Positions 1,706 through 23,035 of a DNA stretch of 23,035 nt are shown here, piece by piece. The stretch's first letter is position 1, and the number at the start of each line of letters is the position of its first letter. Location of the stretch: IMG/VR virus record IMGVR_UViG_3300005533_000023, positions 1 to 23,035 of that record. The stretch is one strand, 5' to 3'. Position numbers and translations under genes: made by a program. Under the pieces are notes generated by a model that was given only the letters and a program-made list of their open reading frames with translations, was not told the DNA's origin and did no database searches. Origin of the DNA: a virus.

Positions 1706-1706
1706 G

Positions 1707-5876: not shown

Positions 5877-6080
5877 TAGCGGCGGCCGGGGATCGCTCAG
5901 GCGTCCGGCCAACGCCCCTCTTACGGCAGAGGTAAAATCGCCGAGACACGGGTCCGCTGAGGCGACCGCCGGGTGCGGAAGCGGGAGCGGGGATCTCAGT
6001 CGCAACCGTAGCGCCGCCGGTCAGCGGCGCGCATCCCCCGCAAGCCGGAAGGAGAGCTTGCGGTACCAGGAGAGATCCTG
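5877..6080 (+). promoter_or_regulatory. Structured non-coding leader upstream of the capsid gene
   Basis: This is the longest gap in the structural block (204 bases). It contains several inverted repeats: CCTCT/AGAGG at about 5917-5932; a perfect 7-bp stem GCGCCGC 6011-6017 with GCGGCGC 6024-6030; a perfect 8-bp stem CCGCAAGC 6038-6045 with GCTTGCGG 6056-6063, whose loop carries GGAAGGAGA; and CAGGA 6067-6071 with TCCTG 6076-6080 around a GAGA loop directly before ATG 6081. The ribosome site AGGAGA (6068-6073) lies within this last hairpin. A TAAAAT near 5932 could be a -10 box, but I see no good -35. It may tune or boost capsid expression; I cannot assign it to a known RNA class. Confidence 0.5.
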
Positions 6081-6998: not shown

Positions 6999-7013
6999 CA
7001 GCGGAGGCCGCAA

Positions 7014-7523: not shown

Positions 7524-7528
7524 AAGCA

Positions 7529-8134
7529 ATGGCCGCCAACGACAGCCCGTTGACGATCGCAAATCTCGCGCTACTCGACCTCGGCGAGGAACCGATCAGC
7601 GCGATTTTCCCGCCCGACGGCAGCGACCGCGCGGCGAAGGCGGCCTTGTATTATCACAACGTCCGGCGGCAGGTCTTGAGAGATGGCCTGTGGGGCTGCG
7701 CCAAGCGCGACGTCTTGCTCGCAGCCTCGACCGTCACCCCGCCGTTCGGATGGGGGAACGCCTACCCCCTCCCAGCCGACTACCTGCGGATTGTCGATAG
7801 CCCCGAGGATTTCTATTGGGGCCGCGTCGGCCGGCGGCGGGTGCGCAACCTGGCGAATGTCGGCCCGTGCCTGTTGACGCCGGACGCCGCCCCGTATCGG
7901 CTGACCTACATCTTCGATCTGCAGGATTGCACGCAGATGACGGCCGATCTGGTGATGACGATCGCCAAATCGCTGGCCGCTGCCCTGGCCATCCCGCTAG
8001 CCAAGGATTTGCAGATCAAGCAGGACATGGAGGCGGCGCGCGAGGGCATGCTCGCGGTCGCGCGCACCACCAGCGCGCAGGAGAACGCCGCGGTCGAGTG
8101 GGACGTTGACGTGCTTTTGCGGAGCAGGTTCTGA
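7529..8134 (+). CDS. Tail adaptor (tail tubular protein A, T7 gp11-like)
   Basis: A 201-residue protein, near the 196 residues of T7 gp11. The N-terminus (LTIANLALLDLGEEPISAIF) and VRRQVLRDGLWGCAKRDV match the 'N.AL..LG..PI ... R..vL....W..A' pattern of this family. PLPADYLRIVDSPED follows, and then a C-terminal helical bundle (DLVMTIAKSLAAALAIPLAK). It forms the ring that joins the portal to the tail nozzle. The stop overlaps the next start by one base (TGATG), matching co-production with the nozzle protein. Confidence 0.9.
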   Translation: MAANDSPLTIANLALLDLGEEPISAIFPPDGSDRAAKAALYYHNVRRQVLRDGLWGCAKRDVLLAASTVTPPFGWGNAYPLPADYLRIVDSPEDFYWGRVGRRRVRNLANVGPCLLTPDAAPYRLTYIFDLQDCTQMTADLVMTIAKSLAAALAIPLAKDLQIKQDMEAAREGMLAVARTTSAQENAAVEWDVDVLLRSRF

Positions 8135-10857
8135 TGCTGCAGGACCTGCAAATCTCGAACTTCACCGCCGGCGAGCTGTCGCCGCGCATGAAGGGCCGCA
8201 CCGACTACCAAAAATATTACCAGGGCCTCGATGTCGAGCGGAACATGGTCACGATGCCGCAAGGCGGCGCGACCAAGCGGCCCGGCACGATGTTCGTCGC
8301 ATTAGCCAAGGACCAGCAGGCCGCCCCGTTCGCGGTGCGCCAGCTGCCCTTTATTTTCTCGCATGTGCAGGCCTACACCCTCGAGCTGGGCGGCGGCTAT
8401 GTCCGCATCTACGCCAATGACGGGCAGGTGTCGAGCGGCGGCTCGCCGGTCGAGATCGCAGTGCCATACCAGACAAACGAAATCTGGGACGTGCACATCA
8501 CCCAATCGGCCGACACGTTGTTTCTTGCCTGCGGTACCGGCGGCCCCAACGGCACCGGATACCCGCTCGCGACCATCACCCGCTCGGGGGCCACGACCTG
8601 GAGTTATCAGACCTATCCGCTGCTCGACGGCCCCTATACAGACCTTAACAGCGTGCCGCAGACGACGCTAGCGCTCTCAGGCAACCAGCAGGCGGTAACG
8701 GGTGCCGCGAATAACGGTTCCGGCGCGATCCGGCTCACGGTCGGCAGCACCACCGGCTTCGCCAGCGGCCAGGCGGTGACGGTCTCGCTTGTGGAGGGAA
8801 CGACAGAAGCGAATGGCCAGTGGACCGTGACCGTAGTCGATGGCACGCATCTCGACCTCAACAACTCGGTATTCCAAAATGCGTGGACGCAAGGCGGCAA
8901 GGTGTTTGCCTGCGCGACGCCAACCACGATCACCGCGAGCCAGACCGCCGGCATCAACGGCGGTGCCGGCTTCCAGGCGAGCGACGTCGGCCGCGCGCTG
9001 AGGATCAACACGACAGACGGCACTAACACAGGATGGTGCTGGTTTGTCATCAACACAGTGATGAGCCCGACGCAGGTGACCGCGACCCTGCAGGCCGCCA
9101 CGATCACGACCCAGGCGCAGGCGCAGGGCGGCCTGCCCACGTCGGAATGGCAGCTAGGCGCCTTCGGCCCGAGCCTCGGCTATCCCTATGTCGTGGGGTT
9201 CTGGCAGCAGCGGCTCACGCTCTTTGGGAACGCCGCGGTCCCCAATGCTGTGTGGCTCTCGAACACCGGTGCCTTCGACGTGTTCGGCACGACGAACGCC
9301 GATGGCACCGTGACTCCATCGAACGGCCTCTATTGGGTGATCGACACCACCTCGAGCAACGGCCAGATCAACGCCGCGCGATGGGTGATCACCGCCGGCA
9401 GCGCCGAGGCGCTGCAGCTGGGCCTCGGCACCTCCGGCAGCGAGGCGATCTTGCAGGCGGCGACCACGTCGGCCGCCCTGAGCGCCACGAACGTACAGGT
9501 GTACCAGGAAACGGCCTATGGCTCGGCCGCCAATGTGCCGCCCCTGCGGATCGGCAAGGCAGTGCTGTTCGCCGATGTGACGGGCCGAAAAATCCGCGAG
9601 TGGGCTTATTATTGGCAAGCCTTCGGCTACCTGGCGCCGGACAAGACAGCGGAAAGCGAGCACATCACCCGCGGGCCGCCGGGAACGCCGCCGACGAGCT
9701 GGGGCCTGCGCTGGATGGCCTATCAGCAATCGCCGCACCAGGTGATCTGGGCGGGGCGGAACGAGGGAGGCCTCATCTCGATCACCTACGACCGTGATCA
9801 ACAGATTTGGGCGCCCTCGCAGCACGTGCTCGGCGGCCAGTACTATGGCGGCCCGCCAATCGTCGAGAGCGGATGCGTCATCCCGTCTCCCGATGGAACC
9901 TATGACGAGCTGTGGCTTGTGGTGTTGCGCACGGTCGCCGGCCGGCCCACGCGCACCATCGAGGTGATGACACGATTTTACGACGCCATGCCGCAAGATC
10001 AGGCATGGTTCCTCGATTGCGCAATCGCCTCCCCGCTCACCTATCCTGACGCCACGCTGACAATCTCCGGGCTGAGCGGAACGAGCCCGCTTCCCGGCAC
10101 GGCCGCGCTGACCATGACGCCGGCGTGGGCCGGCACCGGCACCTTCAGCGCCAACGCGCCGGTGTTTTCCGGGGGCGCCCCCGATTTGGGAAAGATGATC
10201 CGCGTCAATGGTGGCCGGGCGGTGGTAACCGGCGCGATTTCGACCACCGCAGTCACCGCGCAGGTCACCACGCCGCTGTTGAGCCTCGCCCCCGCCGCCA
10301 GCGGGCAGTGGAGTTGTACTGCGCCACGATCGAGCTTCAGCGGGCTGGATTACGCCGTCGGCGAAACGGTGCGGGTGCTGGCCGATGGCGCCGACTTCGG
10401 CGAGCAGGTAGTGCCGGGCGCGCCAACCCCGGGCGAGATACAATTGCAGTTTCCGGCCAGCTATGTGGTCGCCGGATTTCCCTACACCCCGGTGCTGGTA
10501 TCGGAGCCGTTCGAGGCGCAGCGCGCCGCTTTTGCCGCCGCGCGCGGCAAGGCCAAGCGCTTGGTGCACCTCTATCTGCGATTTTACGAGACGGTCGGCG
10601 CGATCTTCGGCCGCCGGCTGACCGATCCGACATCCGGCCAGGTCAGCGACATTGTCGAGCGGCTGCCCTGGCGACAGCCAGCAAACCCGCTCAACGTGCC
10701 GCCGCCGCTCTTCTCCGGAATCCGCAGGCTCGACGCGCCAGGCGGCTTCGATCGAGAGGGCCAGGTCATCGTGACCCAGGACGGCCCCTTGCCGCTGACA
10801 GTGCTATCGATCAACGCGTCGGTCGAGGTTGGCGATGTCCCCATCACCGCGCAGTGA
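8134..10857 (+). CDS. Tail nozzle-type protein (tail tubular protein B-like)
   Basis: A protein of 907 residues. The N-terminus, FTAGELSPRMKGRTDYQKYY followed by RNMVTMPQGGATKRPGT, is the signature 'xGELSPrlxGRxDxxKYxxGxxxxxNmxxxpqGgxxkRPGT' of large podophage tail proteins at the gp12/nozzle position. It is larger than T7 gp12 (794). Residues of about 185-330 look like an inserted beta-rich Thr/Ser/Gly/Val domain. The C-terminus resumes with HLYLRFYETVGAIFGRR, a conserved closing segment of this family. It should form the distal tube of the short tail. The order adaptor, nozzle, internal proteins is canonical. Confidence 0.85.
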   Translation: MLQDLQISNFTAGELSPRMKGRTDYQKYYQGLDVERNMVTMPQGGATKRPGTMFVALAKDQQAAPFAVRQLPFIFSHVQAYTLELGGGYVRIYANDGQVSSGGSPVEIAVPYQTNEIWDVHITQSADTLFLACGTGGPNGTGYPLATITRSGATTWSYQTYPLLDGPYTDLNSVPQTTLALSGNQQAVTGAANNGSGAIRLTVGSTTGFASGQAVTVSLVEGTTEANGQWTVTVVDGTHLDLNNSVFQNAWTQGGKVFACATPTTITASQTAGINGGAGFQASDVGRALRINTTDGTNTGWCWFVINTVMSPTQVTATLQAATITTQAQAQGGLPTSEWQLGAFGPSLGYPYVVGFWQQRLTLFGNAAVPNAVWLSNTGAFDVFGTTNADGTVTPSNGLYWVIDTTSSNGQINAARWVITAGSAEALQLGLGTSGSEAILQAATTSAALSATNVQVYQETAYGSAANVPPLRIGKAVLFADVTGRKIREWAYYWQAFGYLAPDKTAESEHITRGPPGTPPTSWGLRWMAYQQSPHQVIWAGRNEGGLISITYDRDQQIWAPSQHVLGGQYYGGPPIVESGCVIPSPDGTYDELWLVVLRTVAGRPTRTIEVMTRFYDAMPQDQAWFLDCAIASPLTYPDATLTISGLSGTSPLPGTAALTMTPAWAGTGTFSANAPVFSGGAPDLGKMIRVNGGRAVVTGAISTTAVTAQVTTPLLSLAPAASGQWSCTAPRSSFSGLDYAVGETVRVLADGADFGEQVVPGAPTPGEIQLQFPASYVVAGFPYTPVLVSEPFEAQRAAFAAARGKAKRLVHLYLRFYETVGAIFGRRLTDPTSGQVSDIVERLPWRQPANPLNVPPPLFSGIRRLDAPGGFDREGQVIVTQDGPLPLTVLSINASVEVGDVPITAQ

Positions 10858-11320
10858 CGAGCTGACGATCGTTCCGCTCACCCCCGAGCTGCACCAGGCG
10901 CTGGTAGCGCGGCCGCTGCGCCATCAGACGCTTAAGTTGTTCGGCGCCGACGCAGCCGCCGAGGCGCGGCACTGCAATGAATACGGCTATGCCGTGACGG
11001 TTGACGGCTTCCCGGTGGCCGCCGGCGGCCTCGTTCCGTACTGGGAGGGACACGCCGAAGCGTGGCTGATCCTGGCTGACGCATGCGCGCCGCGGATGGT
11101 GCTGCGAATATTGACGGCTGCGCGCCGCCGCCTCGACCGCTGGCAGACCCTGCCGCACCTCGCTCGGATACAGATGTTCGTGCGCGCCGATGCGCGTTGG
11201 CGCAACAAATTCGGGCTGATGCTAGGCATGACCTGCGAGGGCGTGCATCGCCGATGGGGGCCGGACGGCGCGGATTATGAATGCTGGGCGCGCGTGGCGC
11301 CGCGATACGGCCGGCCATGA
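10835..11320 (+). CDS. Internal virion protein, T7 gp13-like (GNAT-related)
   Basis: A 161-residue protein. I chose ATG 10835 because GAGG at 10825-10828 is suitably spaced; a TTG two codons earlier is in frame. It overlaps the nozzle gene by 23 bases. The pattern of an opening helix (LTPELHQALVARPLR), a strand with EYGYAVTVDGFPVAAGGLVP, and a late MFVRADARWRNKFGLMLGM fits the gp13/DUF2833 group, whose fold resembles N-acetyltransferases. In T7, gp13 helps assemble the internal core. No convincing acetyl-CoA loop (R/QxxGxG/A) is visible, so enzyme activity is doubtful. Position between nozzle and gp14-like genes supports the call. Confidence 0.7.
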   Translation: MSPSPRSDELTIVPLTPELHQALVARPLRHQTLKLFGADAAAEARHCNEYGYAVTVDGFPVAAGGLVPYWEGHAEAWLILADACAPRMVLRILTAARRRLDRWQTLPHLARIQMFVRADARWRNKFGLMLGMTCEGVHRRWGPDGADYECWARVAPRYGRP

Positions 11321-11592
11321 CAGCGCACTTCGAGCCAACCGCGGGCGTCATCCGCGTCTACCGGCACGGCAACCAGTGGGGCGACCCGTTCGACCTCGCG
11401 CTTGCTGTCAGCGGCGACGAGGGCGTGGCGACACTGAAAGCGCTGTCGCATGCCACGCCGCGGCCCGACGATTTCGCGGCGATCGCGCAAGCGCTCCGCG
11501 CCGCCGGCTTCCACACCATGCGCTGGACCCGTCACCGGCCCGACGGCACGGTGCAAGAAAAGCGCTTCTCGACGGCCCGGCGCGATGGCTGA
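11317..11592 (+). CDS. Hypothetical protein between gp13-like and gp14-like genes
   Basis: A 91-residue protein. ATG 11317 overlaps the upstream stop (ATGA); a longer in-frame start at 11281 lies well inside the upstream gene and is less likely. It has FEPTAGVIRVYRHGNQWGDP, an Asp/Ala-rich helix (FAAIAQALRAAGFHTMRW), and a basic end (TRHRPDGTVQEKR). I recognise no family. Codon use matches neighbours. It overlaps the gp14-like gene by 8 bases, so it belongs to the same translation unit. Confidence 0.7.
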   Translation: MTAHFEPTAGVIRVYRHGNQWGDPFDLALAVSGDEGVATLKALSHATPRPDDFAAIAQALRAAGFHTMRWTRHRPDGTVQEKRFSTARRDG

Positions 11593-12118
11593 TTTCGGGA
11601 TCGGCGAGGCGTTGTTAGCGGCGACCGCCGCCGCCACGACGATCGGCTCCGCGATCTCGGCCGCCGGCGCCGCCAGCGAAGGGCAAGGCCAGGCCGCGGC
11701 CCTTCAGACCAACGCGCAAATCCAACAGCAGAATGCGCAGATCGCCACGGCGCAGGCGGCCGCCCAGGCCGCCATCGACAAGGCGCAAACAGAGCGCACC
11801 CTAGGGCAGATAGCGGCGAGTTATGGCGCCAGCGGCGTTGACGTGACGCGCGGCTCTCCGCTGCAGGTGATGGCTGACCAGGCCGCAACCGGCGAGCTGA
11901 CGCGCCAGCTCGACTTGTACCGCGGTGCCGTGGCGGCCACGGGCAACCTGAACCAGGCCCAGCTTTACCGGATCGAGGCGCAGCAGGCGCAACAGGCCGG
12001 GCAAATCCGCGCCGGCGCCACGATCCTGACGGGGCTTGGCGCGACGGCGCGGGCCGCCGCCCCGCTGTTCGGCAGCAGCGCCGTCAATCAGGACTTCTCC
12101 GGCCGGGTAAGCTACTGA
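11585..12118 (+). CDS. Internal virion protein, T7 gp14-like
   Basis: A 177-residue protein starting at ATG 11585. The frame stays open upstream to 11450, but that region is covered by the 11317 gene. The N-terminus is a membrane-prone Ala/Gly segment (EALLAATAAATTIGSAISAA, residues 8-27). Then comes a Gln/Ala-rich helix (QIQQQNAQIATAQAAAQAA) and ASYGASGVDVTRGSPLQVMA, a pattern typical of gp14-family internal core proteins (T7: 196 residues). In T7, gp14 is ejected first and forms the outer-membrane part of the channel. It is followed by a TGATG overlap to the next internal protein. Confidence 0.8.
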   Translation: MADFGIGEALLAATAAATTIGSAISAAGAASEGQGQAAALQTNAQIQQQNAQIATAQAAAQAAIDKAQTERTLGQIAASYGASGVDVTRGSPLQVMADQAATGELTRQLDLYRGAVAATGNLNQAQLYRIEAQQAQQAGQIRAGATILTGLGATARAAAPLFGSSAVNQDFSGRVSY

Positions 12119-14154
12119 TGCCGGTAATCCCCACCGACTTCAATCCCGGCCGCACGCCGTTTGCCGCCGGCGAGCTGCGCGCCGAGGCGAGCCCGGCTTA
12201 TTTCGGCATCGCCGGGGCTGCGACCGCCGCCGGCGGCGAGCAAATCTCAGCGGAAGCCCGGCAGTTCGCCACGCAATACGCAGACGCCATCCGACAGAAG
12301 ACCGCCAGCAACCTGGCGTTCACCGCGATGTCGCAAATCTCGCAAGCACAGGAGAAGTGGTCGAGGATCCCGGATTCACGGCAGGCGATCGCCGGGTTCG
12401 ATGCCGAGACGCGCCAAATCCGCGACCAGATCGCCGGACAGACCGAGGACCCGGAAGTGCAGGCGCTGGTATTGCGCCAATTGAACAGCCACGTGATTTG
12501 GTCGCAGCTGGGCGTTCAAAACCGCTCGTTTGCGCTCGAGGCCAGCGCGCACCGCGCGCAGCTCGACGAGCAGCTCTTTGGCCCGACCGGCTACGCGGCA
12601 ATGGCGATGCAAGCGCCGAATGCGCCGGCGCGCGCCAGCATCATCGACAGCGCCGCCGCCGCGATCAAGGGCGCCGTCGCCGCCGGCTGGATGTACGGCG
12701 AGCACGGCGAGGAGCGGCTAGAGCGCTTCCGGGACCAGGTCAACGCCTCGGTATTGCGCCGCGATCTGCGCGAAAATCCTCAACGGGCTCTCGCCGAGCT
12801 GGACAGCGGCCAGTATGATGGCCAGATCAGCCCGGCCCAGCGCGCTGCGCTGCAGCCGGAGATCGATCGCGCGCGCGGCGTGAAAGCCTTGAGCGAGGTG
12901 CTGAGCAGCGGGATCGGATTGCCCGCGCAACTGCCGAGCGACCCCAACGCCGCCGCCGAGCTGATCAAGACCCGCGAAAGCGGCGGCAGCTACACCACCG
13001 GCTATGGCGGCGTCGATCTGAGCAACGCGCCGCACGACGACACCGGCTTTCCGCAATGGGCGGGCGCGCCGGGGCCGGCAGGGATCACCCACGCCGCCGG
13101 CGCCTATCAGTTCGAGCCCGGCACCTGGCGCAAATACGCCGTGCCGCTTGGCATTCATGACTTCTCGCCGGCGAGCCAGGACCGGGTGTTTCGCGCGGCG
13201 TTCGGCGCGGAGGGTTATGCGCCTTGGCGCGAGACCTTCGCGCAGCGCAGCCTCACCGCCGCCTATGACCGGATCGACCAGATGGGGCTCGACCCCGAAA
13301 CGGCGCTGCGCGTCAAGGAAGAGGCCCGCGCCAATTACGCCGCCCTCGAGGCGGACCAGCTGCGCCAGGAACGGATACAGGCGCAGCAGCAGAAGGCCGC
13401 CCGCGAGGCGCGGGAAAACGAAATCATCGAGGACGCCTATAGCGGCCACCCAAAGATCGCCGCGCAGGACGTAGCCAACGATCCCGCCTTTGCCTCCGAC
13501 CCCGAGGCACGGCTGCGAATGATCGCCGTCGTGCGCAGCGGCGGCCAAGCGGGGCCGCCGCCGGGGCCCAGCCACGCCGAGGCGATGCAGCTCATCCAAC
13601 GGATCAGGCTGCCCGCCGATGACCCCAATCGCATCGCCTCGCTTGATCCGATCTATGATGCACTGATCGCTGGCCGGCTGACAAAATCCGATTTCGATTT
13701 TGTGCGAAACGAGTTCATCAATATTCGCTCGCCAGCCGGCGAGATATTCGCCAAGAGAAAGGCGGAATTCATCAAGGCGATCGAGCCGCAGATCGACCGA
13801 AGCATTCTAAGCGGAATCCCGGATTTGACGGGGAAAGAACGCCTATACGAATACGAATATGCGCTCGATCGGAAGATCGACGAATACCGTAAGGCGGGCA
13901 AGGACCCGAACGACCTGCTAGACCCTAGCAAGCCGGACTATTACGGCAAGCCCGAGGTGCTGAAGCCCTATCAGCGCACGCTGCAGCAATTGCTTTCGGA
14001 CCTTCCCGGCGCCGGCGAGCCGCCGCAATGGGCAATCGACCGGCTGCGCGAGCACCCCGAATGGCGCGCCGCGTTCGACCAGAAATTCGGCCCCGGCGCG
14101 GCGGCGAAGGTGCTCGGTCCCGCCGCCGGCGTCGCGGCGCCGATGGGGCGGTAG
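12118..14154 (+). CDS. Internal virion protein with lambda-R-like lytic transglycosylase domain
   Basis: A 678-residue protein. Residues 1-270 are helical and Gln/Ala-rich, like internal core proteins. Residues 282-380 resemble the lambda R endolysin: TRESGGSYTTGYGGVDLSN, then ITHAAGAYQFEPGTW, then LGIHDFSPASQDRVF. These align with lambda R 'SEGT...HGYD', 'STGAGRYQLL' and 'LGLKDFSPKSQD'. E287 would be the catalytic acid. The remaining 300 residues are helical and charged. By analogy with T7 gp16, whose transglycosylase opens peptidoglycan during ejection, this protein likely cuts the wall locally at DNA entry. Here the enzyme sits in the gp15 position, not the terminal gene. Confidence 0.8.
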   Translation: MPVIPTDFNPGRTPFAAGELRAEASPAYFGIAGAATAAGGEQISAEARQFATQYADAIRQKTASNLAFTAMSQISQAQEKWSRIPDSRQAIAGFDAETRQIRDQIAGQTEDPEVQALVLRQLNSHVIWSQLGVQNRSFALEASAHRAQLDEQLFGPTGYAAMAMQAPNAPARASIIDSAAAAIKGAVAAGWMYGEHGEERLERFRDQVNASVLRRDLRENPQRALAELDSGQYDGQISPAQRAALQPEIDRARGVKALSEVLSSGIGLPAQLPSDPNAAAELIKTRESGGSYTTGYGGVDLSNAPHDDTGFPQWAGAPGPAGITHAAGAYQFEPGTWRKYAVPLGIHDFSPASQDRVFRAAFGAEGYAPWRETFAQRSLTAAYDRIDQMGLDPETALRVKEEARANYAALEADQLRQERIQAQQQKAAREARENEIIEDAYSGHPKIAAQDVANDPAFASDPEARLRMIAVVRSGGQAGPPPGPSHAEAMQLIQRIRLPADDPNRIASLDPIYDALIAGRLTKSDFDFVRNEFINIRSPAGEIFAKRKAEFIKAIEPQIDRSILSGIPDLTGKERLYEYEYALDRKIDEYRKAGKDPNDLLDPSKPDYYGKPEVLKPYQRTLQQLLSDLPGAGEPPQWAIDRLREHPEWRAAFDQKFGPGAAAKVLGPAAGVAAPMGR

Positions 14155-14157
14155 CGG

Positions 14158-17100
14158 ATGGCCAATCCGTTCGACGCCCCGCCCGAACAAGCCAATCCCT
14201 TTGACGCGCCGCCCTCGACGCTGGCGCCGATCGGCCACGCCCTGGACGAGGCGCTCGGCCTTTCGAAATTCGCCGCCGGGTTCCGTGAAGGGTGGGGTGC
14301 CTCGCCGCCCGGCGAGGCCGCGACGCGAGCGCTGCGCGAGGCCGGCATTCTGCCGGATTACCAGCGCGGCCAGACCGGGATCATGCGCGAGATCAACGAG
14401 GCGCTGTTGCGGCCGCTATTGACGGCAGTAGACGCGGCGGCGCGCCTGCCTTACGCGACCGCCCGCGGGCTCGCCGAAGCGGCGCCGCTGATCGGCGGCC
14501 CGATCGCGGCGGCGATGGAAGCCTTTCCCGCCGCAAGTTTCACCGGGCTGCCCAACGTGCCGGGCGCCGGGCTGGCGGCCGCCGAAGCGGCGCGAGTGAT
14601 TGGACACGGCGAGGCCGGATGGAAAGGCTTGCCGGAGCGGCCGGCAGAGGCCGAACCGCCGACCGAAGCACCCGCGGAGCCGCCCTCGGCACCGCCGGCG
14701 GCGATCGCGGTGGCGGAGAGCGAGCCGCCGCCGGCACCGCAGATCAACGTGCACGCGGCGGCGCGCTCGATCGACCCCCAGACGATGGAGCAATACGACC
14801 GGCTCAAACAGCAGCGCGCGATCTTCCGCCAGCAGCTCGACGAATTGAGCGAGCTGCGCTCCCGCCAGGCGGAGGAGCTGGCGCCCGGCAGCGCGCGGAT
14901 TCCGCGGCTGCAGGAGCAGATCGCCGCCGCTGACGCGCGCCGCCGCGCGATCCTGCAAGACCGGCTTGACCGGCTGCAAGCGCAGCGCTCGGCATGGATC
15001 GAGGATTACCTCGGCCATGACACGCCCGAAATGGCGCGGGTGCGGCAGGACTTGATGCAGACCGATTTTCAGATGCGCGATCTTGCCGAGGCTGTCTCGG
15101 CGATCTACCGCCAGGCGCGCCAGATGGTTCCCGAGGAGATAAGCGCTGAGCAAGCCACGCCGGAGACACTCGAGCGACCGCCGCCGCCGCCGCAGGCTCC
15201 GCCGCCGCAGGCTCCGCCGCCGCAGGCTCAGCCGCCGCAGGCTCCGCCGCCGCAGGCTCCGCCGCCGCGCCCGACGACGACGCTACCATTACCGCCCGGC
15301 GGGATTGCCGCCGACGTAGCGAGGCAATTGATGGCCGCCGGCCGGCCAGCCGACGAAGCGCAAGCCGCGGCGCAGATCGTGACGGCCTACTACGATACCC
15401 GCGCGCAGCGCTTCCAGGGCCGGCTTGGCACGGCCGAAGACCTCTATGCGCGTGAGGCCGCGACCATCCGAGGCGCCGAACAGGGCGGCCCGCGAGGCGT
15501 GGCGCGGGGCCGCACTGTGATGCGGAACGGCCGCGCGATCGTGACCTTGTTCCGCCGCGCCGACGCCTCAACTTTTGTGCACGAGACGGCCCACCAATGG
15601 CTCGAGCAGCTGCTTGCCGATGCCGAGCGGCCCGAAGCCCCCGAGCAACTCCGCGCCGACGCGCGCACGGTTCGCGACTGGGCGCAGGAACCGACCGGCC
15701 CACTGCCCCGCGCGGCACACGAGCGCTTCGCGCGCAATTTCGAGGCCTATCTGCTGGAGGGCGTAGCGCCGTCGCGGCGCCTGGCCAGCGTATTCGCCCA
15801 GTTCCGGCTATGGCTGACGGAAGCCTATCGCGCGCTCAACCGCGTGCGGGCGCCGGTCGAGCCGCAGCTGCGCGCGATCTTCGACCGGATGCTGACCACG
15901 GCACCCGTCGAGCCGGTCATCGCTCCCGAGCAGCGCGTTCCCGATCTGGCGACAGCAATCGAGGACGCCGCGGAGCAAGCGCGGAACGAGGACGCCGAAG
16001 AGATCGCCGAGCAGGTCAGCGAGGCGCGCGCGCGAGCGGCCGACCGTCTAAGCGAGGGAGCCCAGAATGATCGGGAGCGAGAGCGACCGCATCCAGCACC
16101 ACCAGCGGCAGATCGAGGCCTTGCACCACGAAGTCAGGTGGCTGACGGTGGCGCAGATGAACCCGAAATATTCAATGTCGGATCGCGCGGTGTTCCGGCT
16201 CCTCGAGCGATCGGCGAGGGCGGAAATCAAACTGAGACGCAAGGCGATCGCGCACCTGGAGAGCAGCCCCAACCAGGCATAACGGTTACGCTGCGCCCGC
16301 TGAGTCGGCGGCCGCAAAGCCCCTATGCCGAGGTGCCCCCGGCGCCGGTAACGCTCAGCGAATTCCTGCGTCGGGCGGGCGGTGTGCAGAACCAGGACGG
16401 CGAGCTGACCCGCTACCTGCGGCGCAAGCCCGGTCTGATCAACCGCCGCGGCATGCCGCTCGATGAGGCGACGCTACAAGCGTGGGAAGCCGGCTATTTA
16501 CCGGGCCGCGAGCGGCCGGAGATCAGGGTGCTGCTCCAACATCTGGAGCGCGAGCTGACCGACGGCCAACCGGTTTATTCGGAGGCAGATCGCGACAAGC
16601 TCGCGGCGTGGGAGGCCGCGATCCAACACAATCGGGAGATCGATCGCCTCGGCCAGATGCTGGGCGTCGATCCGCGCGATTTCACCCAGGAGCAATTCCT
16701 GAACCTGACGGCCGAGATGCTTCGCGGCGAGGAAGCCGACGAGCTGGAGAAATCGCTGAGCGACGCGACCGAGGCCGAGATCGCGGAAGCTGAGCGCCGC
16801 GCGCAGGAGTGGGCGGAAAGCCGCGGCGACGCCTGGGAACCCGATTATTTTGCTGGGCCGCCGCGCACATGGGAGGACCTTGAGAATGAAGAGCGAGCAG
16901 AGGCAGAGGCTTACGGCCGTCTACCGCCGAGCGCTGGCGGCACTGCACCATCCCGACCTGCCGCCGGAGATCAAGGCTCTTTACAAGCGGGCGCTCGACA
17001 AAGCCGACCTGGCGCTGGGGCTGGATCACGCCAGAATGCGGCGCCAGGCCCTGGCAGACCTGGCGCCGACCGTCTCCCGCCCGGATCAGACCTGATCGAC

Positions 17101-19317
17101 AAGGCCGGCAACATCCGGCTCGACCTGCTCGACCTGCCGGAACAAGTCGATCAGGTGATCCGGGACGTAGCCGAGCGCAATAGCGATTTTTGGACCGAGC
17201 GGCGCGGCCGCATGTCGGACGGCGAAATCCTCGATCTTGCCCAGGCGCTCGGCCGCGATCCGGCCTTTCTCGACGCCAAGCGGATCGGGGAGGCATTCAA
17301 CGCCGAGGAAATCCGCGCCGCCCGCGGATTACTCAAGGCCGCCGCGGTGCAGGTATACGAGGGCTTTGTGCGGGTGCGCGCGGCCCTGATGGCCGGCCAG
17401 GACGCCGAGCAGGACACCGTCGCACTGGCGCGCAGCATCGCGCGCCTCGAGATGATACAAGGCAAGGTGGCGCAAGCCACGGCGGAGTGGGGCCGCGCCG
17501 GCCGAGCGCTGCAGATGCTCGCGAGCGAAGCGCCGGAAGACATCAACGAGTTCCTGCGTCAGAACACCGGCCGAACTTTCTACCAATTACAGGAAATGGC
17601 GCGCCGCGGCGTGTCGTTCCGCGACCCCGCCCAAGTATCCCGCTTTGTTACCGACACGGCGGGCGGGAAAATCACGAGGGCGGTGCTTTATTATTACATA
17701 AACGCATTAATCAGCGGCCCCTTTACTCACGCGAGATATAGCGTCGGCAACGCCTTAAATGCGCTATGGACACCGCTGGTGGAAATTCCGCTGGCCGCCG
17801 CCTACGGCAAGATGACCGCCGCCGAAAATCGCGTCTTTCTCGGCGAGGCCGGCGCGCAGCTTTATGCGCTGCTTAAAGGATCGAGGGATGGATGGCGCGC
17901 CGCGATCGAGGCCTATCGGACCGGCTACAGCGGCCCGCTGCGCGGCGAGCGGCCGCCGTCAAGCGTCACCGGGGTGGCCGCGGCGCCGCTCGGCCCGTTC
18001 AGCCGAGCCATCGGCGTTCCTTCCCGCGCTGTGTCCGCGATCCACTCGTTCTTTAAGACGCTGCGCTACGAGCAGCAAATCCAAGGGCTAGCCTACCGAG
18101 ACGCTATGGCGCGCGGCCTCGAGGGCGACGCTTTTGCCCGGCATGTCGCCTATCTCGAGCGCAGCCCGACCCCGGCAATGGTCGAGGAGGCGACATCAAC
18201 CGCGCTGCGCGAGCTGTATATGAGCCCGGTAGATTACGACAGCTTTGCCGGCCATTTGGTGCGCGCGACCGATCGCAACATCCTGGCGAAGATCGTGATC
18301 CCGTTCCTGCGGATCGGCAGCCAGATCACGCGCCAGGCTTTCATCGAGCACACACCGCTCGGCCTCGCCTCGCCCACAGTCCGCGGCCGCCTGGCCGGCG
18401 GCGGCCCTGCCGCGCAATTACAGGCCGCCCGGATCAGCGCCGGCGTGGCGCTGATGGGCGTCACAGTCGGCATGGCGGCCGAGGGGCTGATCACCGGCGA
18501 CGGCCCGGACGACCCCGCGCAGCGCGCGGTCTGGCGGCTCAACCATCGACCGAACACGCTGACGATCGGCGACATCACGATCCCGTTCATGGGGCTCGGC
18601 CATCTCGGCATGCTCATGAGATTCACGGCGAACATGTACGAGACCGCCGCCGGCTGGCGGCAAAACGACGGCGAGAAGCTCGCGGTCAGCTTTTTGAACG
18701 GCGTCAGCCGCGCTGTCCTAGACGACAATTTCATGCGCGGCCTCAAAGACGCGCTCGATGCCGTCTATCACTGGGAGGAATACGGCCCGAGATTTGTCAG
18801 GAACTTCGTAGTCAACTGGTTGCCCTATTCGATCGGCCTAGGGCAGACCGCACGTCAGATGGATCCCTATCAGCGCGAGGCGCGCAGCATCTTCGATGCC
18901 GCGCGCGAGCGGATACCGTTCCTGCGCGAGACCCTACCGCTGATGCGGGATGTATTCGGCGAGCCTATTCCCGCCGGCGCGCCGCTGGCGCGCTACGCCA
19001 ATGACCCCACCGTGCTGACCTTGGAACGGCTACAGATCGGGATCGCCAGGCTGCGCCCAAAGATCCGCGGCGTGGACCTCGACCCGCAGCAATACGACGA
19101 TTACGCGCGAATTGCGGGTCGGCTGACCAAGATGCGGCTCGACGCCTTGGTGACCTTGCCAAACTTCCACACCCTCGCCGTCACCCAGCAAGTCGAGCTG
19201 ATCCGCCACACCATCGCCGACAGCCGCGAGGCGGCGCGAAATATCGTCATGGGGATGTATCCGGCAATCGTCACCCAGGCACTCCAAGCGAAGGCGCAGG
19301 ACGCGGGGCAAAAATGA
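14158..19317 (+). CDS. Giant ejection / polyvalent-type internal virion protein with zincin-like motif
   Basis: A protein of 1719 residues in the position of T7 gp16. Visible layout: residues 1-19, two ANPFDAPP copies; about 60-155, hydrophobic; 205-325, coiled-coil (RLQEQIAAADARRRAILQDR); 342-371, PPPQA repeats; 470-570, H475-E-T-A-H479 followed by HERFARNFEAYLLEGVAPS (521-539), a pattern seen in zincin metallopeptidase domains of phage polyvalent proteins; 710-905, a helical domain with TLSEFLRRAGGVQNQDGEL and EAGYLPG; 980-1719, a long region opening with LIDKAGNIRLDLL and holding hydrophobic stretches (YYYINALISGPFTH; VALMGVTVGMAAEGL). The role is probably ejection into the cell with the DNA, possibly forming the inner-membrane channel. 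Residues about 637-708 and 910-979 are linker that overlaps two nested genes. Confidence 0.85.
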   Translation: MANPFDAPPEQANPFDAPPSTLAPIGHALDEALGLSKFAAGFREGWGASPPGEAATRALREAGILPDYQRGQTGIMREINEALLRPLLTAVDAAARLPYATARGLAEAAPLIGGPIAAAMEAFPAASFTGLPNVPGAGLAAAEAARVIGHGEAGWKGLPERPAEAEPPTEAPAEPPSAPPAAIAVAESEPPPAPQINVHAAARSIDPQTMEQYDRLKQQRAIFRQQLDELSELRSRQAEELAPGSARIPRLQEQIAAADARRRAILQDRLDRLQAQRSAWIEDYLGHDTPEMARVRQDLMQTDFQMRDLAEAVSAIYRQARQMVPEEISAEQATPETLERPPPPPQAPPPQAPPPQAQPPQAPPPQAPPPRPTTTLPLPPGGIAADVARQLMAAGRPADEAQAAAQIVTAYYDTRAQRFQGRLGTAEDLYAREAATIRGAEQGGPRGVARGRTVMRNGRAIVTLFRRADASTFVHETAHQWLEQLLADAERPEAPEQLRADARTVRDWAQEPTGPLPRAAHERFARNFEAYLLEGVAPSRRLASVFAQFRLWLTEAYRALNRVRAPVEPQLRAIFDRMLTTAPVEPVIAPEQRVPDLATAIEDAAEQARNEDAEEIAEQVSEARARAADRLSEGAQNDRERERPHPAPPAADRGLAPRSQVADGGADEPEIFNVGSRGVPAPRAIGEGGNQTETQGDRAPGEQPQPGITVTLRPLSRRPQSPYAEVPPAPVTLSEFLRRAGGVQNQDGELTRYLRRKPGLINRRGMPLDEATLQAWEAGYLPGRERPEIRVLLQHLERELTDGQPVYSEADRDKLAAWEAAIQHNREIDRLGQMLGVDPRDFTQEQFLNLTAEMLRGEEADELEKSLSDATEAEIAEAERRAQEWAESRGDAWEPDYFAGPPRTWEDLENEERAEAEAYGRLPPSAGGTAPSRPAAGDQGSLQAGARQSRPGAGAGSRQNAAPGPGRPGADRLPPGSDLIDKAGNIRLDLLDLPEQVDQVIRDVAERNSDFWTERRGRMSDGEILDLAQALGRDPAFLDAKRIGEAFNAEEIRAARGLLKAAAVQVYEGFVRVRAALMAGQDAEQDTVALARSIARLEMIQGKVAQATAEWGRAGRALQMLASEAPEDINEFLRQNTGRTFYQLQEMARRGVSFRDPAQVSRFVTDTAGGKITRAVLYYYINALISGPFTHARYSVGNALNALWTPLVEIPLAAAYGKMTAAENRVFLGEAGAQLYALLKGSRDGWRAAIEAYRTGYSGPLRGERPPSSVTGVAAAPLGPFSRAIGVPSRAVSAIHSFFKTLRYEQQIQGLAYRDAMARGLEGDAFARHVAYLERSPTPAMVEEATSTALRELYMSPVDYDSFAGHLVRATDRNILAKIVIPFLRIGSQITRQAFIEHTPLGLASPTVRGRLAGGGPAAQLQAARISAGVALMGVTVGMAAEGLITGDGPDDPAQRAVWRLNHRPNTLTIGDITIPFMGLGHLGMLMRFTANMYETAAGWRQNDGEKLAVSFLNGVSRAVLDDNFMRGLKDALDAVYHWEEYGPRFVRNFVVNWLPYSIGLGQTARQMDPYQREARSIFDAARERIPFLRETLPLMRDVFGEPIPAGAPLARYANDPTVLTLERLQIGIARLRPKIRGVDLDPQQYDDYARIAGRLTKMRLDALVTLPNFHTLAVTQQVELIRHTIADSREAARNIVMGMYPAIVTQALQAKAQDAGQK
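15181..15270 (+). repeat. 15-base tandem repeat coding PPPQA
   Basis: Five full units of CCGCCGCCGCAGGCT (the fourth begins CAG in place of CCG) plus a degenerate sixth, coding PPPQA PPPQA PPPQA QPPQA PPPQA PPPRP. It makes a stiff proline-rich spacer between the coiled-coil part and the zincin part of the giant protein. Copy number is likely to vary between relatives. Confidence 0.9.
16067..16282 (+). CDS. Nested gene in +1 frame inside the giant ORF (first)
   Basis: A 71-residue frame wholly inside the 14158-19317 gene, one frame forward. A strong ribosome site GAGGGAG (16054-16060) lies 6 bases before ATG 16067. By hand count 10 of 71 codons end in A or T, as in the other genes here. The giant frame over the same bases has about 43 of 72 A/T-ending codons and turns into Pro/Gly/Gln/Glu linker. 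Usage switches back sharply after TAA 16280-16282. The product is a charged helical protein (HHQRQIEALHHEVRWLTVAQ; FRLLERSARAEIKLRRKAIA) with no membrane segment. I do not recognise a family. Expression is inferred, not shown. Confidence 0.72.
   Translation: MIGSESDRIQHHQRQIEALHHEVRWLTVAQMNPKYSMSDRAVFRLLERSARAEIKLRRKAIAHLESSPNQA
16886..17095 (+). CDS. Nested gene in +1 frame inside the giant ORF (second)
   Basis: A 69-residue frame again one frame forward of the giant gene. Ribosome site GGGAGGA (16871-16877) lies 8 bases before ATG 16886. An upstream in-frame ATG at 16850 lacks such a site. By hand count 11 of 70 codons end in A or T, against about 36 of 70 in the giant frame, which here reads as Gly/Ala/Pro/Arg linker (SAGGTAPSRPAAGDQGSLQA). 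The product is a helical basic protein (RQRLTAVYRRALAALHHPDL; PPEIKALYKRALDKADLALG). Function is unknown. Its stop TGA 17093-17095 falls just where the giant frame resumes a conserved-looking segment (LIDKAGNIRLDLL). Confidence 0.72.
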   Translation: MKSEQRQRLTAVYRRALAALHHPDLPPEIKALYKRALDKADLALGLDHARMRRQALADLAPTVSRPDQT

Positions 19318-21395
19318 CCGTCACAAACACCCTCGACCGCTTCCAATATGCCGGCGATGGTACGACGACCGGCTTCCCGTTCCCGGTGGTATTCACCGCC
19401 CCCGCCGATATCAGCGTAGCGCTGACGATGGGTGCCGCGCAGGTGCCGGTGACGGTGGTGTTGAACGGCGGCGGCACCTACGATTACCAGGTGATCGGCA
19501 CGCCCGATCCGCAGACCGGCGAGTATCTGTCGGGCGCCACAGTGGCCTTCAACACCGCACCGCCCGCCGGCTACACCGTCACCCTGTGGCGGGAGCCGCC
19601 GATCACTCAGCTCGTCGCCTTCGCGGAGAACGACCCGCTCCCGGCCGGCGTGCTGAACGCCGCCCTCGACAAGGGCGCGATGATCAGCCAGTACCTCGAC
19701 GATCAGCTGCAGCGGGCGATCTGCGCGCCATGGACGGACCCGCCGCCGCCCTCGGCGCCCAACATGACCCTGCCGCCGGTTGCGACTCGCGCCGGACAGC
19801 TGGTCAGCTTCGACAGCGCCGGCAACGTCATTGTCGTGCCGCCGGCCGGCAGCTTTACGACCGGGAACTTTGTGGCCAACATGGCCGCGCTGCGCGCCAC
19901 GATCGGCGCGCCAGGCGAGCAAGCCGTATTGACCGGCTACTACACCGCCGGCGACAAGCCGATGGTTCTCTACACGTGGCAGCAGGCCGACAGCCGCAGC
20001 GACGACGGCGGCGCCGTCATCAACCCGACCGGCAACCCCGGCAGCGGCAGATGGAACCTCGACATCCGCGGCGGCCCCTATAGCGTGCTGGATTGGGGCG
20101 CCGACCCGACCGGCGCCACAGCGAGCGACGGCGCATTCAACAACTGCATCGCGGCTGCGATCACGGCCGGCGCCGCCGTGCAAATCCCGGCCGGCCACTA
20201 CGTCTTTGCGTCCCCGCAATATTGGAACGTCTCGAGCGACCGCACCAGCCCGATCTGTATTGCCGGCGCCGGCTCGGGCCTGACCCGCCTAGATTTCTCA
20301 ACCGTTAACGCGGCACCGGCATTGTTGATCGGCGCCAGCGCCGACATCTTCCGGCTCACGATCGACGGCCTCACGATAATCGCGAACGTTGCCGGCCCGG
20401 CGGTGCAGATCGGCCACGAGGATTTCTCGGACCCGATCAACACCAGCCGGATAGGCTACGATTTCAACGTTCAGAACAACTCGACATCAGCGGCGGCGTG
20501 CGCAGTTGAGGCTAACAGCTTCCTGAACGGGATATTGTGGGGCGAGTTCAATTGCGCCGGCCATGGCGACGCGCTCCGGCTCCGCCAGGTGCAATTCTCA
20601 ATGATCGGCGGCTCGCACTCGACGGCCGATTATTGCCACCATTGGACGGCCGGATACTCGTTCGGCAATATCATCGTGGGCGCCGACCTCGAGAACGTCT
20701 CGGCGACCGGCAACAATATCCTTGTGGACGTCACGACCGCATCGAGGAACACCTATCTCGGCGGCCAGTTTGTCGGATCGAGCGGCGGCGGCGCCTTCGT
20801 GCAGATGCAGGCCGCCTCTGATTATTTTCGTTTTGTGGGCTGCAACCCCGGCACGAGCAATCCGCTGATTGCCGGCCCCGCCGCCGCCGCCGCGATCTGG
20901 GAGGATTTATTCACCGGGACGAGCCCGTTCGGCGGCGTGTGGATCAAGCCCGGGAGCGGGCTCGACGCGGTGCTGCAACTCGACGCCGCGGCCGGCCAAA
21001 CGGCCGCCACCCAAATGAAATCGGCCAGCACCTTCCGCTGGCAGATCGCCAAGAACAACGCCACCGAGAGCGGCGGCAACAGCGGCAGCGATCTGATCGT
21101 TACGCGCTACAACGACGCCGGCGGGGCGATCGACAACCCGATCTCGATTCAGCGGTCCACCGGGATCGTGACGATCCAAGACGGACTAAGCGCGCCGAGC
21201 AGCGCTGTGTTCGGTTGGTTCGGTGTGACCCCAGTGGCGCAGCCGACCGGCGGCCACGGCTACAACCCGCACACTGGCGGCAGCGCCAGCCCGGCCCTCT
21301 ATGACACCGCGTGGGATGGCGGCGTGGGATCGCAGGCCTATACCGTTTTCGACCTAGTGCGAGCGCTGAAACTGTTGGGGCTGATCGCGAGCTGA
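19314..21395 (+). CDS. Tailspike protein (T7-type tail anchor plus pectate-lyase-like beta-helix)
   Basis: A 693-residue protein starting by ATGA overlap. Residues 1-140 match the T7 gp17-type tail-attachment domain: RFQYAGDGTTTGFPFPVVF, VTLWREPPITQLVAF, then DPLPAGVLNAALDKGAM. A linker with LTGYYTAGDKPMVLYTW and DDGGAVINPTG...GRWNL follows. From about residue 257, SVLDWGADPTGATASDGAFN is the entry motif of pectate-lyase-superfamily right-handed beta-helices, running to about residue 540. The C-terminus (ALYDTAWDGGVGSQAYTVFD) is probably a trimer or tip region. Such spikes bind and often cleave capsule, LPS or exopolysaccharide. The specific sugar and the active residues cannot be told from sequence. 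Confidence 0.88.
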   Translation: MTVTNTLDRFQYAGDGTTTGFPFPVVFTAPADISVALTMGAAQVPVTVVLNGGGTYDYQVIGTPDPQTGEYLSGATVAFNTAPPAGYTVTLWREPPITQLVAFAENDPLPAGVLNAALDKGAMISQYLDDQLQRAICAPWTDPPPPSAPNMTLPPVATRAGQLVSFDSAGNVIVVPPAGSFTTGNFVANMAALRATIGAPGEQAVLTGYYTAGDKPMVLYTWQQADSRSDDGGAVINPTGNPGSGRWNLDIRGGPYSVLDWGADPTGATASDGAFNNCIAAAITAGAAVQIPAGHYVFASPQYWNVSSDRTSPICIAGAGSGLTRLDFSTVNAAPALLIGASADIFRLTIDGLTIIANVAGPAVQIGHEDFSDPINTSRIGYDFNVQNNSTSAAACAVEANSFLNGILWGEFNCAGHGDALRLRQVQFSMIGGSHSTADYCHHWTAGYSFGNIIVGADLENVSATGNNILVDVTTASRNTYLGGQFVGSSGGGAFVQMQAASDYFRFVGCNPGTSNPLIAGPAAAAAIWEDLFTGTSPFGGVWIKPGSGLDAVLQLDAAAGQTAATQMKSASTFRWQIAKNNATESGGNSGSDLIVTRYNDAGGAIDNPISIQRSTGIVTIQDGLSAPSSAVFGWFGVTPVAQPTGGHGYNPHTGGSASPALYDTAWDGGVGSQAYTVFDLVRALKLLGLIAS

Positions 21396-21724
21396 TGATG
21401 ATGGACGAGGCACTGCATCGCATCCTTGCCGAGCTGGGCGAGCTGCGCGGCGACGTGCGCGCGCTGGTCAGCGCCTGCGCGCGGCTCGACAGCCGGATTG
21501 ACGATCACCTGGCGGCCGACGAGCGGGCCCATGCGAGGCAGGACGAGCGCATCCTGGAAGTGAGCGAGCGGCACGATCGCGAGATCGGCGAGCTGATGAA
21601 GCAACTAGCCCGCATCGAAGCCGGCCACGAGGCAGCCGTGCGCACAGCGATCGTGGTCTCGGCGGTACTCGGCGCTACGGTCGCCGCGCTGGGCGAGGCG
21701 CTGTTGAAGTTTTTGGCGCACTGA
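21395..21724 (+). CDS. Coiled-coil protein with C-terminal membrane segment (possible holin-like)
   Basis: A 109-residue protein. The start overlaps the tailspike stop (TGATGATGATG, with three possible ATGs at 21395, 21398 and 21401). Residues 5-80 form a strongly charged heptad-like helix (DEALHRILAELGELRGDVRA; HDREIGELMKQLARIEAGHE). Residues 83-107 form one membrane segment (TAIVVSAVLGATVAALGEAL) with a short tail. In T7 the holin (gp17.5) also follows the tail fibre gene, so a lysis role is possible. Long coiled-coil plus C-terminal anchor is unusual for a classic holin; a virion or membrane adaptor is the alternative. Confidence 0.65.
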   Translation: MMMDEALHRILAELGELRGDVRALVSACARLDSRIDDHLAADERAHARQDERILEVSERHDREIGELMKQLARIEAGHEAAVRTAIVVSAVLGATVAALGEALLKFLAH

Positions 21725-21802
21725 GGGGTGAGGTACCGGCGGCACAGAAAAACGCATCAGAGACCCGTTTGCGGCTGTTTTAGAGCACGAGGAGCTTAAG
21801 AA

Positions 21803-21988
21803 ATGTGGAAGAACCCGGTAATGGCGTGGATGGTGCTCGCGATCGTATTATCCGGGCTCGGCACGATCTGCACCAGCCTGGCGGCGCTGTGGCAGCATCC
21901 GCCCAGCGCCGGCAGCAGCGGCAGCGGCGGCAGCGCTGACGTGACACCGCCAGCGCCAGGCCCCTTGCCGCCGCCCGCGGCGCACTAA
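21803..21988 (+). CDS. Small membrane protein with Pro/Gly/Ser-rich tail
   Basis: A 61-residue protein. ATG 21803 is preceded by GAGGAG at about 21789-21794. Residues 5-30 form one hydrophobic segment (PVMAWMVLAIVLSGLGTICT) and the rest is disordered (SSGSGGSADVTPPAPGPLPP). No good lipobox is seen around the single Cys, so it is not a clear o-spanin. Its place after another membrane protein suggests a lysis cassette, but this is weak; the gene's size and composition also allow a chance frame. Confidence 0.5.
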   Translation: MWKNPVMAWMVLAIVLSGLGTICTSLAALWQHPPSAGSSGSGGSADVTPPAPGPLPPPAAH

Positions 21989-22065
21989 TCGCACCATTCT
22001 ATCGACCCGGCCAACAAAGGCGCCCTGCCCTGCCGCCGATGCCATCTGGCCTCCGAAGAACGACG

Positions 22066-22731
22066 ATGCGGCAAGCGCTTGACCTCTTTTGCGGGGTCGG
22101 CGGGGCCTCGGTCGGCTTGGCGCGCGCTGGCTTCGAGGTGACCGGCGTGGATATCCGCCCGCAACCGCGCTACCCCTTTCGGTTCATCCGAGCCGACGCG
22201 CTGGCGCCGCCGTTGTGCCGCGACGATTTCGCGCTGATCTGGGCGAGCCCGCCCTGTCAGGCGTTCTCCGCGGCGAACGCTGCGGCGCGGGCTGCCGGCC
22301 GCGTGCATCACCCGAACCTGATCCCCGCCGTCCGCAGGATGCTCGGCTTGGCGCGCGCACTGACGGTCATCGAGAATGTCCCGTTCGCGCCGCTGCGCCC
22401 CGACCTAATCCTCGACGGCACGATGTTTCCCGCGCTCCGGGTCGTCCGGCGCCGATGGTTCGAAACGAGCTGGTGGCCGGGTCTCGCGCCGCCCTCGCGG
22501 ATCAGGCGCGGCATGATCGCAGCCGGCTACAGCTGCGTCGCCGGGGGAGGGCGCAGCAACCATGCCCCGGTCGCCGCTAATGCTTGGCACACGACTGAAG
22601 CGCGGGCCCGCGCAATGGGAATCGACTGGCCGGCGACGCGCGACGAGGTCGCGCAGGCGGTACCGCCCGCTTATGCCGAATTCATCGGCCGCAGTGCCGC
22701 GGCCGTGCTCGACCAGCGGGGCGCCGCATGA
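22066..22731 (+). CDS. DNA (cytosine-5) methyltransferase, compact
   Basis: A 221-residue protein (an in-frame ATG at 22039 would add nine residues; neither start has a strong ribosome site). The C5-methyltransferase motifs appear in order: motif I LDLFCGVGGASVGL with FCGVGG at residues 8-13 (AdoMet binding), motif IV PPCQAF with catalytic C64, motif VI E103-N-V, an R128-R-R-W-F resembling motif VIII, and motif X PPAYAEFIG near 200-208. Only about 65 residues lie between motif VIII and X, so the target-recognition region is short. No restriction enzyme lies beside it. The likely role is self-methylation of phage DNA against host restriction; the site is unknown. Confidence 0.9.
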   Translation: MRQALDLFCGVGGASVGLARAGFEVTGVDIRPQPRYPFRFIRADALAPPLCRDDFALIWASPPCQAFSAANAAARAAGRVHHPNLIPAVRRMLGLARALTVIENVPFAPLRPDLILDGTMFPALRVVRRRWFETSWWPGLAPPSRIRRGMIAAGYSCVAGGGRSNHAPVAANAWHTTEARARAMGIDWPATRDEVAQAVPPAYAEFIGRSAAAVLDQRGAA

Positions 22732-22802
22732 CCGAGTATCCGTGGCCGCTGGTCGTCGAGCTCGACGGGCAGCCAAAGGCGCCCTGGGCGCCCATCTACT
22801 AG
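22728..22802 (+). CDS. 24-residue ORF coupled to the methyltransferase, possibly a broken gene
   Basis: The start overlaps the methyltransferase stop (ATGA at 22728), as for the real genes of this unit, and the peptide MTEYPWPLVVELDGQPKAPW plus APIY is not low-complexity. It stops at TAG 22800-22802. In the -1 frame the sequence continues as HLLEGHYELGLLRKDA to TAG at 22841-22843, just before the terminator. A single lost or gained base near 22780-22800 could have split one protein of about 38 residues. Either a true micro-protein or a frameshifted remnant. Confidence 0.4.
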   Translation: MTEYPWPLVVELDGQPKAPWAPIY

Positions 22803-22852
22803 AAGGCCACTACGAGCTTGGGCTGCTACGCAAGGACGCGTAGAACACGCCG

Positions 22853-22882
22853 AAGCGCCGCAGTTGACTGCGGCGCTTTTTG
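22853..22882 (+). terminator. Rho-independent terminator ending the late operon
   Basis: A perfect 11-bp stem, AAGCGCCGCAG (22853-22863) with CTGCGGCGCTT (22868-22878), around a TTGA loop, followed by a T-run (22877-22881). It is about 10 bases after the last in-frame stop. It is the only clear intrinsic terminator I see in the window, so the late transcript probably runs from upstream of the window to here. Confidence 0.92.
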
Positions 22883-22895
22883 TTAAGTTGTTGGA

Positions 22896-22915
22896 ATTGC
22901 GGGAAAACCCGCAAT
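22896..22915. repeat. Perfect 8-bp hairpin beside the tRNA fragment
   Basis: ATTGCGGG (22896-22903) and CCCGCAAT (22908-22915) with an AAAA loop. No T-run follows on either strand, so it is not a standard terminator. It abuts the first base of the tRNA-identical block, so it may be an integrase or accessory-protein site, or simply the hairpin left at the junction. Confidence 0.6.
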
Positions 22916-22970
22916 CTCAAAATCTGTTGTCCGAGAGGACGTGGGAGTTCAAGTCTCCCCGCCCGCACCA
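22916..22970 (+). other. 3' fragment of tRNA-Leu(CAA): probable phage attachment (att) core
   Basis: The block reads as tRNA from the anticodon loop to CCA: loop CTCAAAA with anticodon CAA at 22918-22920, stem strand TCTGT, long variable arm with GTCC-GAGA-GGAC, T-arm GGGAG-TTCAAGT-CTCCC (22943-22959), acceptor strand CGCCCGC (22960-22966), A, and encoded CCA (22968-22970). The long variable arm and the CAA anticodon indicate tRNA-Leu. No matching 5' half exists upstream: at the expected place there is neither a GCGGGCG acceptor strand nor an ACAGA anticodon-stem strand. Integrases commonly use the anticodon-to-3'-end part of tRNA genes, so this is probably attP or one prophage junction. From 22971 to the end I see nothing further. 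Confidence 0.85.
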
Positions 22971-23035
22971 CGGCGCAGGCCATTGGCGAGCCGGCCCAAG
23001 CTCGGCGGCGCGGCCCGCGCGGTCCGCTCCCTGAG

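Follow-up and report, generated by a model that had tools for sequence, protein, structure and literature searches.

A displaced tRNA-Leu(CAA) fragment as the very probable attR of a temperate podovirus integrated in a soil alphaproteobacterium

Next to the right end of a 23,035-nucleotide viral contig (IMG/VR record IMGVR_UViG_3300005533_000023; the whole stretch analysed, hereafter the window), phage DNA is followed by part of a tRNA-Leu(CAA) gene, complete from the anticodon loop to CCA and with a 5′ side that is not tRNA. How did such a fragment come to lie there? The initial annotation had taken it for an integrase target and for a sign that the element is, or was, temperate. We compared the locus with bacterial and viral contigs, and the junctions recovered point to a prophage end in a host chromosome.

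The tRNA-Leu block and its junctions

The block comprises 55 bases (CTCAAAATCTG...CCCGCACCA). ARAGORN, run over the whole window, reported no complete tRNA, as expected of a 3′ fragment. The same program located two intact 86-nucleotide tRNA-Leu genes, with the anticodon CAA at nucleotide 34, that hold the identical 55 bases: one at positions 5076–5161 of L004, a contig stretch of the alphaproteobacterial soil MAG Centralia_MAG_3, and one at 4491–4576 of L005. In L004 the block begins at tRNA nucleotide 32, with which the anticodon loop opens; this bears out both the break exactly at this loop and the run from there to CCA that had been read from the sequence alone. The span originally marked, 22883–22970, holds as tRNA from 22916 onward, its left 33 bases being non-tRNA phage sequence. 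A decayed tRNA 5′ half in these 33 bases was considered and rejected, the local alignment score of 6 being reached by 66% of 5,678 phage 33-mers.

Exact matches to the 55 bases, which are far above chance expectation, were found in four stretches. Three came from genome_contigs (84,980 genomes, one per species), on two contigs of Centralia_MAG_3 and one of CP_BE_BS_25, both alphaproteobacterial MAGs; the single match in viral_contigs (2.9 million contigs) was IMGVR_UViG_3300027706_000028 (39,775 bases; hereafter G001). Three of the four stretches belong to the matching host (two) or the matching phage (one), and the fourth is the tRNA gene of a related bacterium (L005, from CP_BE_BS_25). Within the host's family, the block occurred with at most three mismatches in 4 of 39 genomes (exactly in 2). 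Of these, the Centralia MAG alone had a further copy, on contig C192, which begins with the core. A 235-base query found no known phage with this junction in 'phages', and an 88-base query no known plasmid with it in 'plasmids'.

The host side of the comparison is provided by L004, which carries attB, i.e., the intact tRNA-Leu(CAA) followed by the same flank as in the window at 22971–23035. BLAST aligned window 22916–23022 to L004 5107–5213 with 107 of 107 identities, and window 22916–23035 to positions 1–120 of C192 with 120 of 120; the search for an intact host tRNA-Leu(CAA) sharing the block, proposed as a check, was thus successful. On the phage side, window 1–22970 gave a single BLAST match to G001 2483–25452 (22,970 bases, 2 mismatches, 99.991% identity; G001 coordinates minus 2482 give window coordinates), with the attP core at G001 25398–25452 (55 of 55). 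This match stops at the last CCA base and the two sequences diverge right after it: G001 enters a tyrosine integrase gene that is convergent (minus strand), and the window enters the host flank, which is missing from G001 at the corresponding place. From these alignments we place the phage/host boundary at 22970/22971. As the block is joined to the same host flank in attB and to an integrase gene in a near-identical phage, we take it to be the integration site and the window to contain attR (features collected in Table 1), in agreement with the original reading of the block as an integrase target.

At the level of sequence, attB, attP and attR, i.e., three of the four expected recombination junctions, are established together with the exact limits of the core. 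No contig with attL was found: the integrase occurred in G001 only among viral contigs and in 0 of 9 genomes of the host's genus, Centralia_MAG_3 included. The portal gene was likewise found in 0 of 2 genomes, again including Centralia_MAG_3. Since it has neither integrase nor portal, the MAG bin itself shows the empty site only.

The host genes on both sides of the site are ordinary chromosomal ones. To its left lie genes for a luciferase-like monooxygenase and an HpcH/HpaI aldolase; to its right, C192 carries the type II secretion genes K, L and F. The initial annotation had suggested looking for an integrase either just beyond position 23035 or at the other end. Given the type II secretion genes past the site, the first of these places drops out, and the lysogen's integrase would lie at the unseen attL end.

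Table 1 Features of the window (coordinates in window positions)
Feature	Position	Strand	Evidence
Right prophage part: virion genes, then DNA methyltransferase	1..22970	+	99.991% to G001 2483-25452; PHROGs
Head-tail connector (portal) gene	1707..3392	+	phrog_332, E 1.4e-121
DNA methyltransferase, last substantial gene before attR	22039..22731	+	phrog_363, E 3.3e-34
12-bp hairpin and T-rich run, TTTTTGTT overlapping its end	22853..22878	+	likely intrinsic terminator
Perfect 8-bp hairpin (loop AAAA), phage side, directly at the core	22896..22915	.	sequence ATTGCGGG-AAAA-CCCGCAAT
attR core, tRNA-Leu(CAA) 3′ part, nucleotide 32 to CCA	22916..22970	+	exact in L004, L005 and G001
End of integrase ORF (last 6 codons and stop, plus one base), 22 bases in core	22949..22970	-	G001 ORF
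Chromosomal flank of the host, following tRNA-Leu to the right of attR	22971..23035	+	65/65 identical to C192 56-120

The phage and its integrase

Scanning of 20 ORFs against PHROGs yielded matches to a head-tail connector, a major head protein, internal virion proteins and, for the tail, tail proteins and a tail spike; the T7-type set of connector, head, tail and internal virion proteins is complete (phrog_332, 3437, 394, 376, 308, 418 and 6651). The nearest relatives of the portal protein were those of HTVC010P-type pelagiphages, with about 38–41% identity (best 20 of 181 matching phage records). On this gene content, we assign the phage to the podoviruses of T7-like/HTVC010P type. The remainder of G001 encodes the integrase, primase-type proteins and the terminase; the largest of the ORFs listed on the right-hand side of the integrase has 638 aa and matches a family annotated as DNA primase. 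The two ends of the G001 record are identical over 118 bases, so that it is probably a complete circle, even though the matching ends fall in a repeat-rich gene. Searching G001 for the T7-type single-subunit RNA polymerase that marks Autographiviridae (PF00940) gave no match, with the controls equally unmatched. As regards a repressor, the only sign was a weak HTH match near the integrase (PF19575, 22.0 vs 23.8 bits, under the cut-off). The same phage also appeared in a third sample (IMG 3300048015), as a piece of 6,461 bases with 99.7–99.9% identity; its alignment is interrupted at window 3474–3512. In the host's order, a relative of the portal was seen in 1 of 43 genomes, at 26% identity; this distant relative (L020; G041 C82 5968–7509) is a 686-aa open frame, and the locus is possibly a related prophage.

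Several further features of the window were recorded. Units resembling AESGAAADTVTET form internal repeats at window 277–825, within a 402-aa ORF (230–1438) that has no PHROGs match and near whose repeat region the window starts. Part of a 1719-aa ORF (window 15178–15301) is 70–77% similar to G001 at about 757–907 (other strand) and at 28638–28869. A 678-aa protein of the virion region (window 12118–14154) includes an endolysin or tail-lysozyme-like stretch at residues about 281–357.

The integrase ORF, at positions 5431–6684 (minus strand) of L013, a stretch of G001, encodes 417 aa and ends in GAGGET*. It matched PF00589 above the cut-off (E 6.8e-7; 29.7 vs 27.1 bits) and phrog_1 (E 4e-21), and its translation contains the stretches LRHTAITRL, GHS and ARYL, which we take to be the motifs expected of tyrosine integrases. 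The 3′ end of this ORF falls within the core, and in the window it is severed from the rest of the gene. attP and attB share this core, so that integration should not alter the integrase. Literature on an integrase overlapping attP was not found under that phrase.

The sequence CGTTCAAC occurs eight times in G001, three of them at 25490–25523, within the integrase gene and close to its 3′ end. These three form a cluster of two direct copies and one inverted copy, 38–71 bases right of the attP core (L013 5490–5523), and two further copies lie at G001 34074 and 34089. The copies are possible candidates for arm-type sites of the integrase or for excisionase sites.

Integration model and its alternatives

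Judged from these comparisons, a temperate podovirus has very probably integrated in tRNA-Leu(CAA) of a soil alphaproteobacterium, and the feature is its attR. In the circular phage, attP is a copy of the tRNA 3′ part that runs from the anticodon loop to CCA and lies immediately downstream of the phage's tyrosine integrase gene; this integrase would presumably recombine attP with attB within the shared 55 bases. The crossover most likely falls in the anticodon-loop sequence CTCAAAA, between the arms of the anticodon stem; we place it there by analogy with the anticodon-centred class of sites, as sequence alone bounds it to the 55 bases. At attL, the host's tRNA 5′ half would be joined to the phage-borne 3′ half, which would restore the tRNA with every base unchanged; the former 3′ half of the host gene would be displaced to the far end, where the window shows it. 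Of the proposal that the element is temperate, integration is borne out by attB, attP and attR, and lysogenic maintenance is presumed. The likely host of this uncultivated soil podovirus is thereby fixed as an alphaproteobacterium of the Centralia_MAG_3 lineage; among the matches listed in a literature search on Centralia phages, none mentioned 'Centralia'.

The contig ends around the site bear on the competing explanation that free phage (attP) and empty site (attB) were misjoined during assembly through the 55-base block, integration itself being perhaps rare. G001 and L004 do exist as separate molecules and attL is missing, both as such a chimera would have it, and the host side of the window spans only 65 bases, which leaves some small probability to a chimeric join through the repeat. 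Against this stands the assembly footprint in the MAG, where contig names carry the label k107. C192 opens on exactly the first core base, and L004, on the tRNA side, stops exactly 107 bases past that base (5107–5213). In a de Bruijn graph, a 107-base node with two different left neighbours gives contig breaks of this kind. A misjoin would require an assembly overlap of at most 55 bases. The MAG contigs, with a k larger than the block, still break at the core's first base, which is best explained by a second left context; in addition, the phage integrase directly adjoins the site. The node is best read as having at least two left neighbours, one being the tRNA 5′ half of attB and the other, presumably, phage DNA as in the window, at attR. 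If the second neighbour is indeed the phage, empty and lysogenic chromosomes coexisted in the Centralia sample. The window itself ends 120 bases past the core's first base, which would fit a similar assembly cause. Integration thus tells where the contig ends and probably why, and we consider the chimera very improbable.

Two other origins of the fragment are less probable still. Old islands can leave displaced tRNA fragments, and the block might accordingly be the fossil of a past integration by a phage that no longer moves. Yet the phage part including the core is 99.99% identical to G001, a record with 118-base identical ends and without host flank, and the core with its host flank is 100% identical to the empty site. 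This near-identity to a phage record and identity to an empty site indicate very recent movement, and we regard a dead remnant as most improbable. Some phages carry tRNA genes, and a decayed gene of this kind, unconnected with integration, could also leave a partial tRNA; but no tRNA 5′ half is present left of the core, identity to the phage record ends exactly at the core, to be followed by host flank, and the match to attB refutes the idea, so that we give it next to no credence.

Hairpins beside the core and comparison with known systems

The perfect hairpin that the initial annotation had seen directly abutting the block does touch the core, with zero gap. Its interpretation as an intrinsic terminator was rejected, no T run following it on either strand. 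For the late operon, the likely intrinsic terminator is the neighbouring 12-bp hairpin with TTTTTGTT, to the left. When L013 5100–9200, a stretch that includes the core-abutting hairpin, was scanned for terminators, this hairpin was not listed, but the scan is not decisive because the 12-bp hairpin, in which the Ts begin inside the stem, was missed as well. Perfect 8-bp hairpins (loop 3–8) number 21 in G001, where 8 Markov sequences averaged 9.4, and 3 of the 21 lie within 190 bases at attP (G001 25336, 25378 and 25501). The chance of one ending exactly at the edge of the core, reckoned post hoc, is about 0.1% (21 x 2 / 39,775). On the int transcript, both hairpins fall just past the stop codon, with an RNA fold z of -6.39 (200 shuffles, none as stable); for the plus-strand DNA at 22840–22975, the fold z is -5.37.

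In phage lambda, the element sib lies past attP, and integration separates it from int. This downstream element retroregulates lambda int (PMC5300877). The geometry is the same here, with RNA structure beyond attP on the int transcript that is cut off by integration. By this analogy, the core-touching hairpin and the terminator hairpin might form a sib-like switch on the int transcript, thrown by integration and independently evolved around a tRNA site, an idea that we consider doubtful. Were it true, the convergent int mRNA of the circular phage would end in both hairpins; in the prophage, the hairpins would stay at attR, about 40 kb off, and int mRNA would instead cross the rebuilt tRNA-Leu in antisense. 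Opposite the integrase gene, the hairpin that abuts the core adds a small, testable detail.

The mechanism as such is textbook: elements that integrate at the anticodon loop and displace a 3′ tRNA fragment are common and well catalogued. In the Islander account (PMC4383910), elements whose tyrosine integrase acts at a tRNA gene have part of that gene in their attP, the gene is rebuilt upon integration, and a displaced fragment marks the other end of the island. The same account counts 3,919 candidates, comprising 3,760 islands with a 3′ and 159 with a 5′ fragment, and gives an anticodon-centred site for 2,083 of the 3,919. Compared with its elements of the anticodon-loop (A) subsite, as described there, the present case shows no essential difference: attP fragment, tRNA restoration and displaced fragment are the same, although the evidence here comes from several metagenome contigs and not from one replicon. 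The integrase genes of the viruses Mx8 and SSV extend across attP according to a passage in the same source, so that, as here, the end of int lies in the attachment core; in the present phage, just the last six codons and the stop fall within the 55-base block, and the protein should stay unchanged.

Related podoviruses offer closer parallels. For HTVC010P-related and other pelagiphages, the relevant section of PMC3861242 ties several new genomes to SAR11 by integrase and att site at a tRNA gene, and mentions an HTVC019P-like genome carrying 46 bases of tRNA-Leu. The portal is related to those of HTVC010P-type phages (about 38–41% for the best 20 of 181 records), but the host here is a soil alphaproteobacterium and the sequences are far apart. 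In the T7-like cyanophages P-SSP7 and S-TIP37, the integrase gene adjoins an attP that matches a segment of the host tRNA-Leu exactly, and integration was shown by PCR and lost on deletion of int or attP; the 39-base motifs match the first half of tRNA-Leu, and stable lysogens were not found, all as reported in the parts of PMC8776855 on integration. The present phage is likewise a podovirus with its integrase beside a tRNA-Leu attP, which here corresponds to the 3′ part of the tRNA. Finally, PMC10386132, on PhiGT1-like temperate podoviruses, describes prophages of about 40 kb gathered from alphaproteobacterial genomes, which were sought as insertions at tRNA genes with an integrase alongside. 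An integrase is likewise encoded by the metagenomic EPV2 (EBPR podovirus 2), and it is 29% identical to the G001 integrase over 75% of its length. As far as compared here, the likeness to this group consists in a podovirus of about 40 kb, insertion in a tRNA gene and an integrase.
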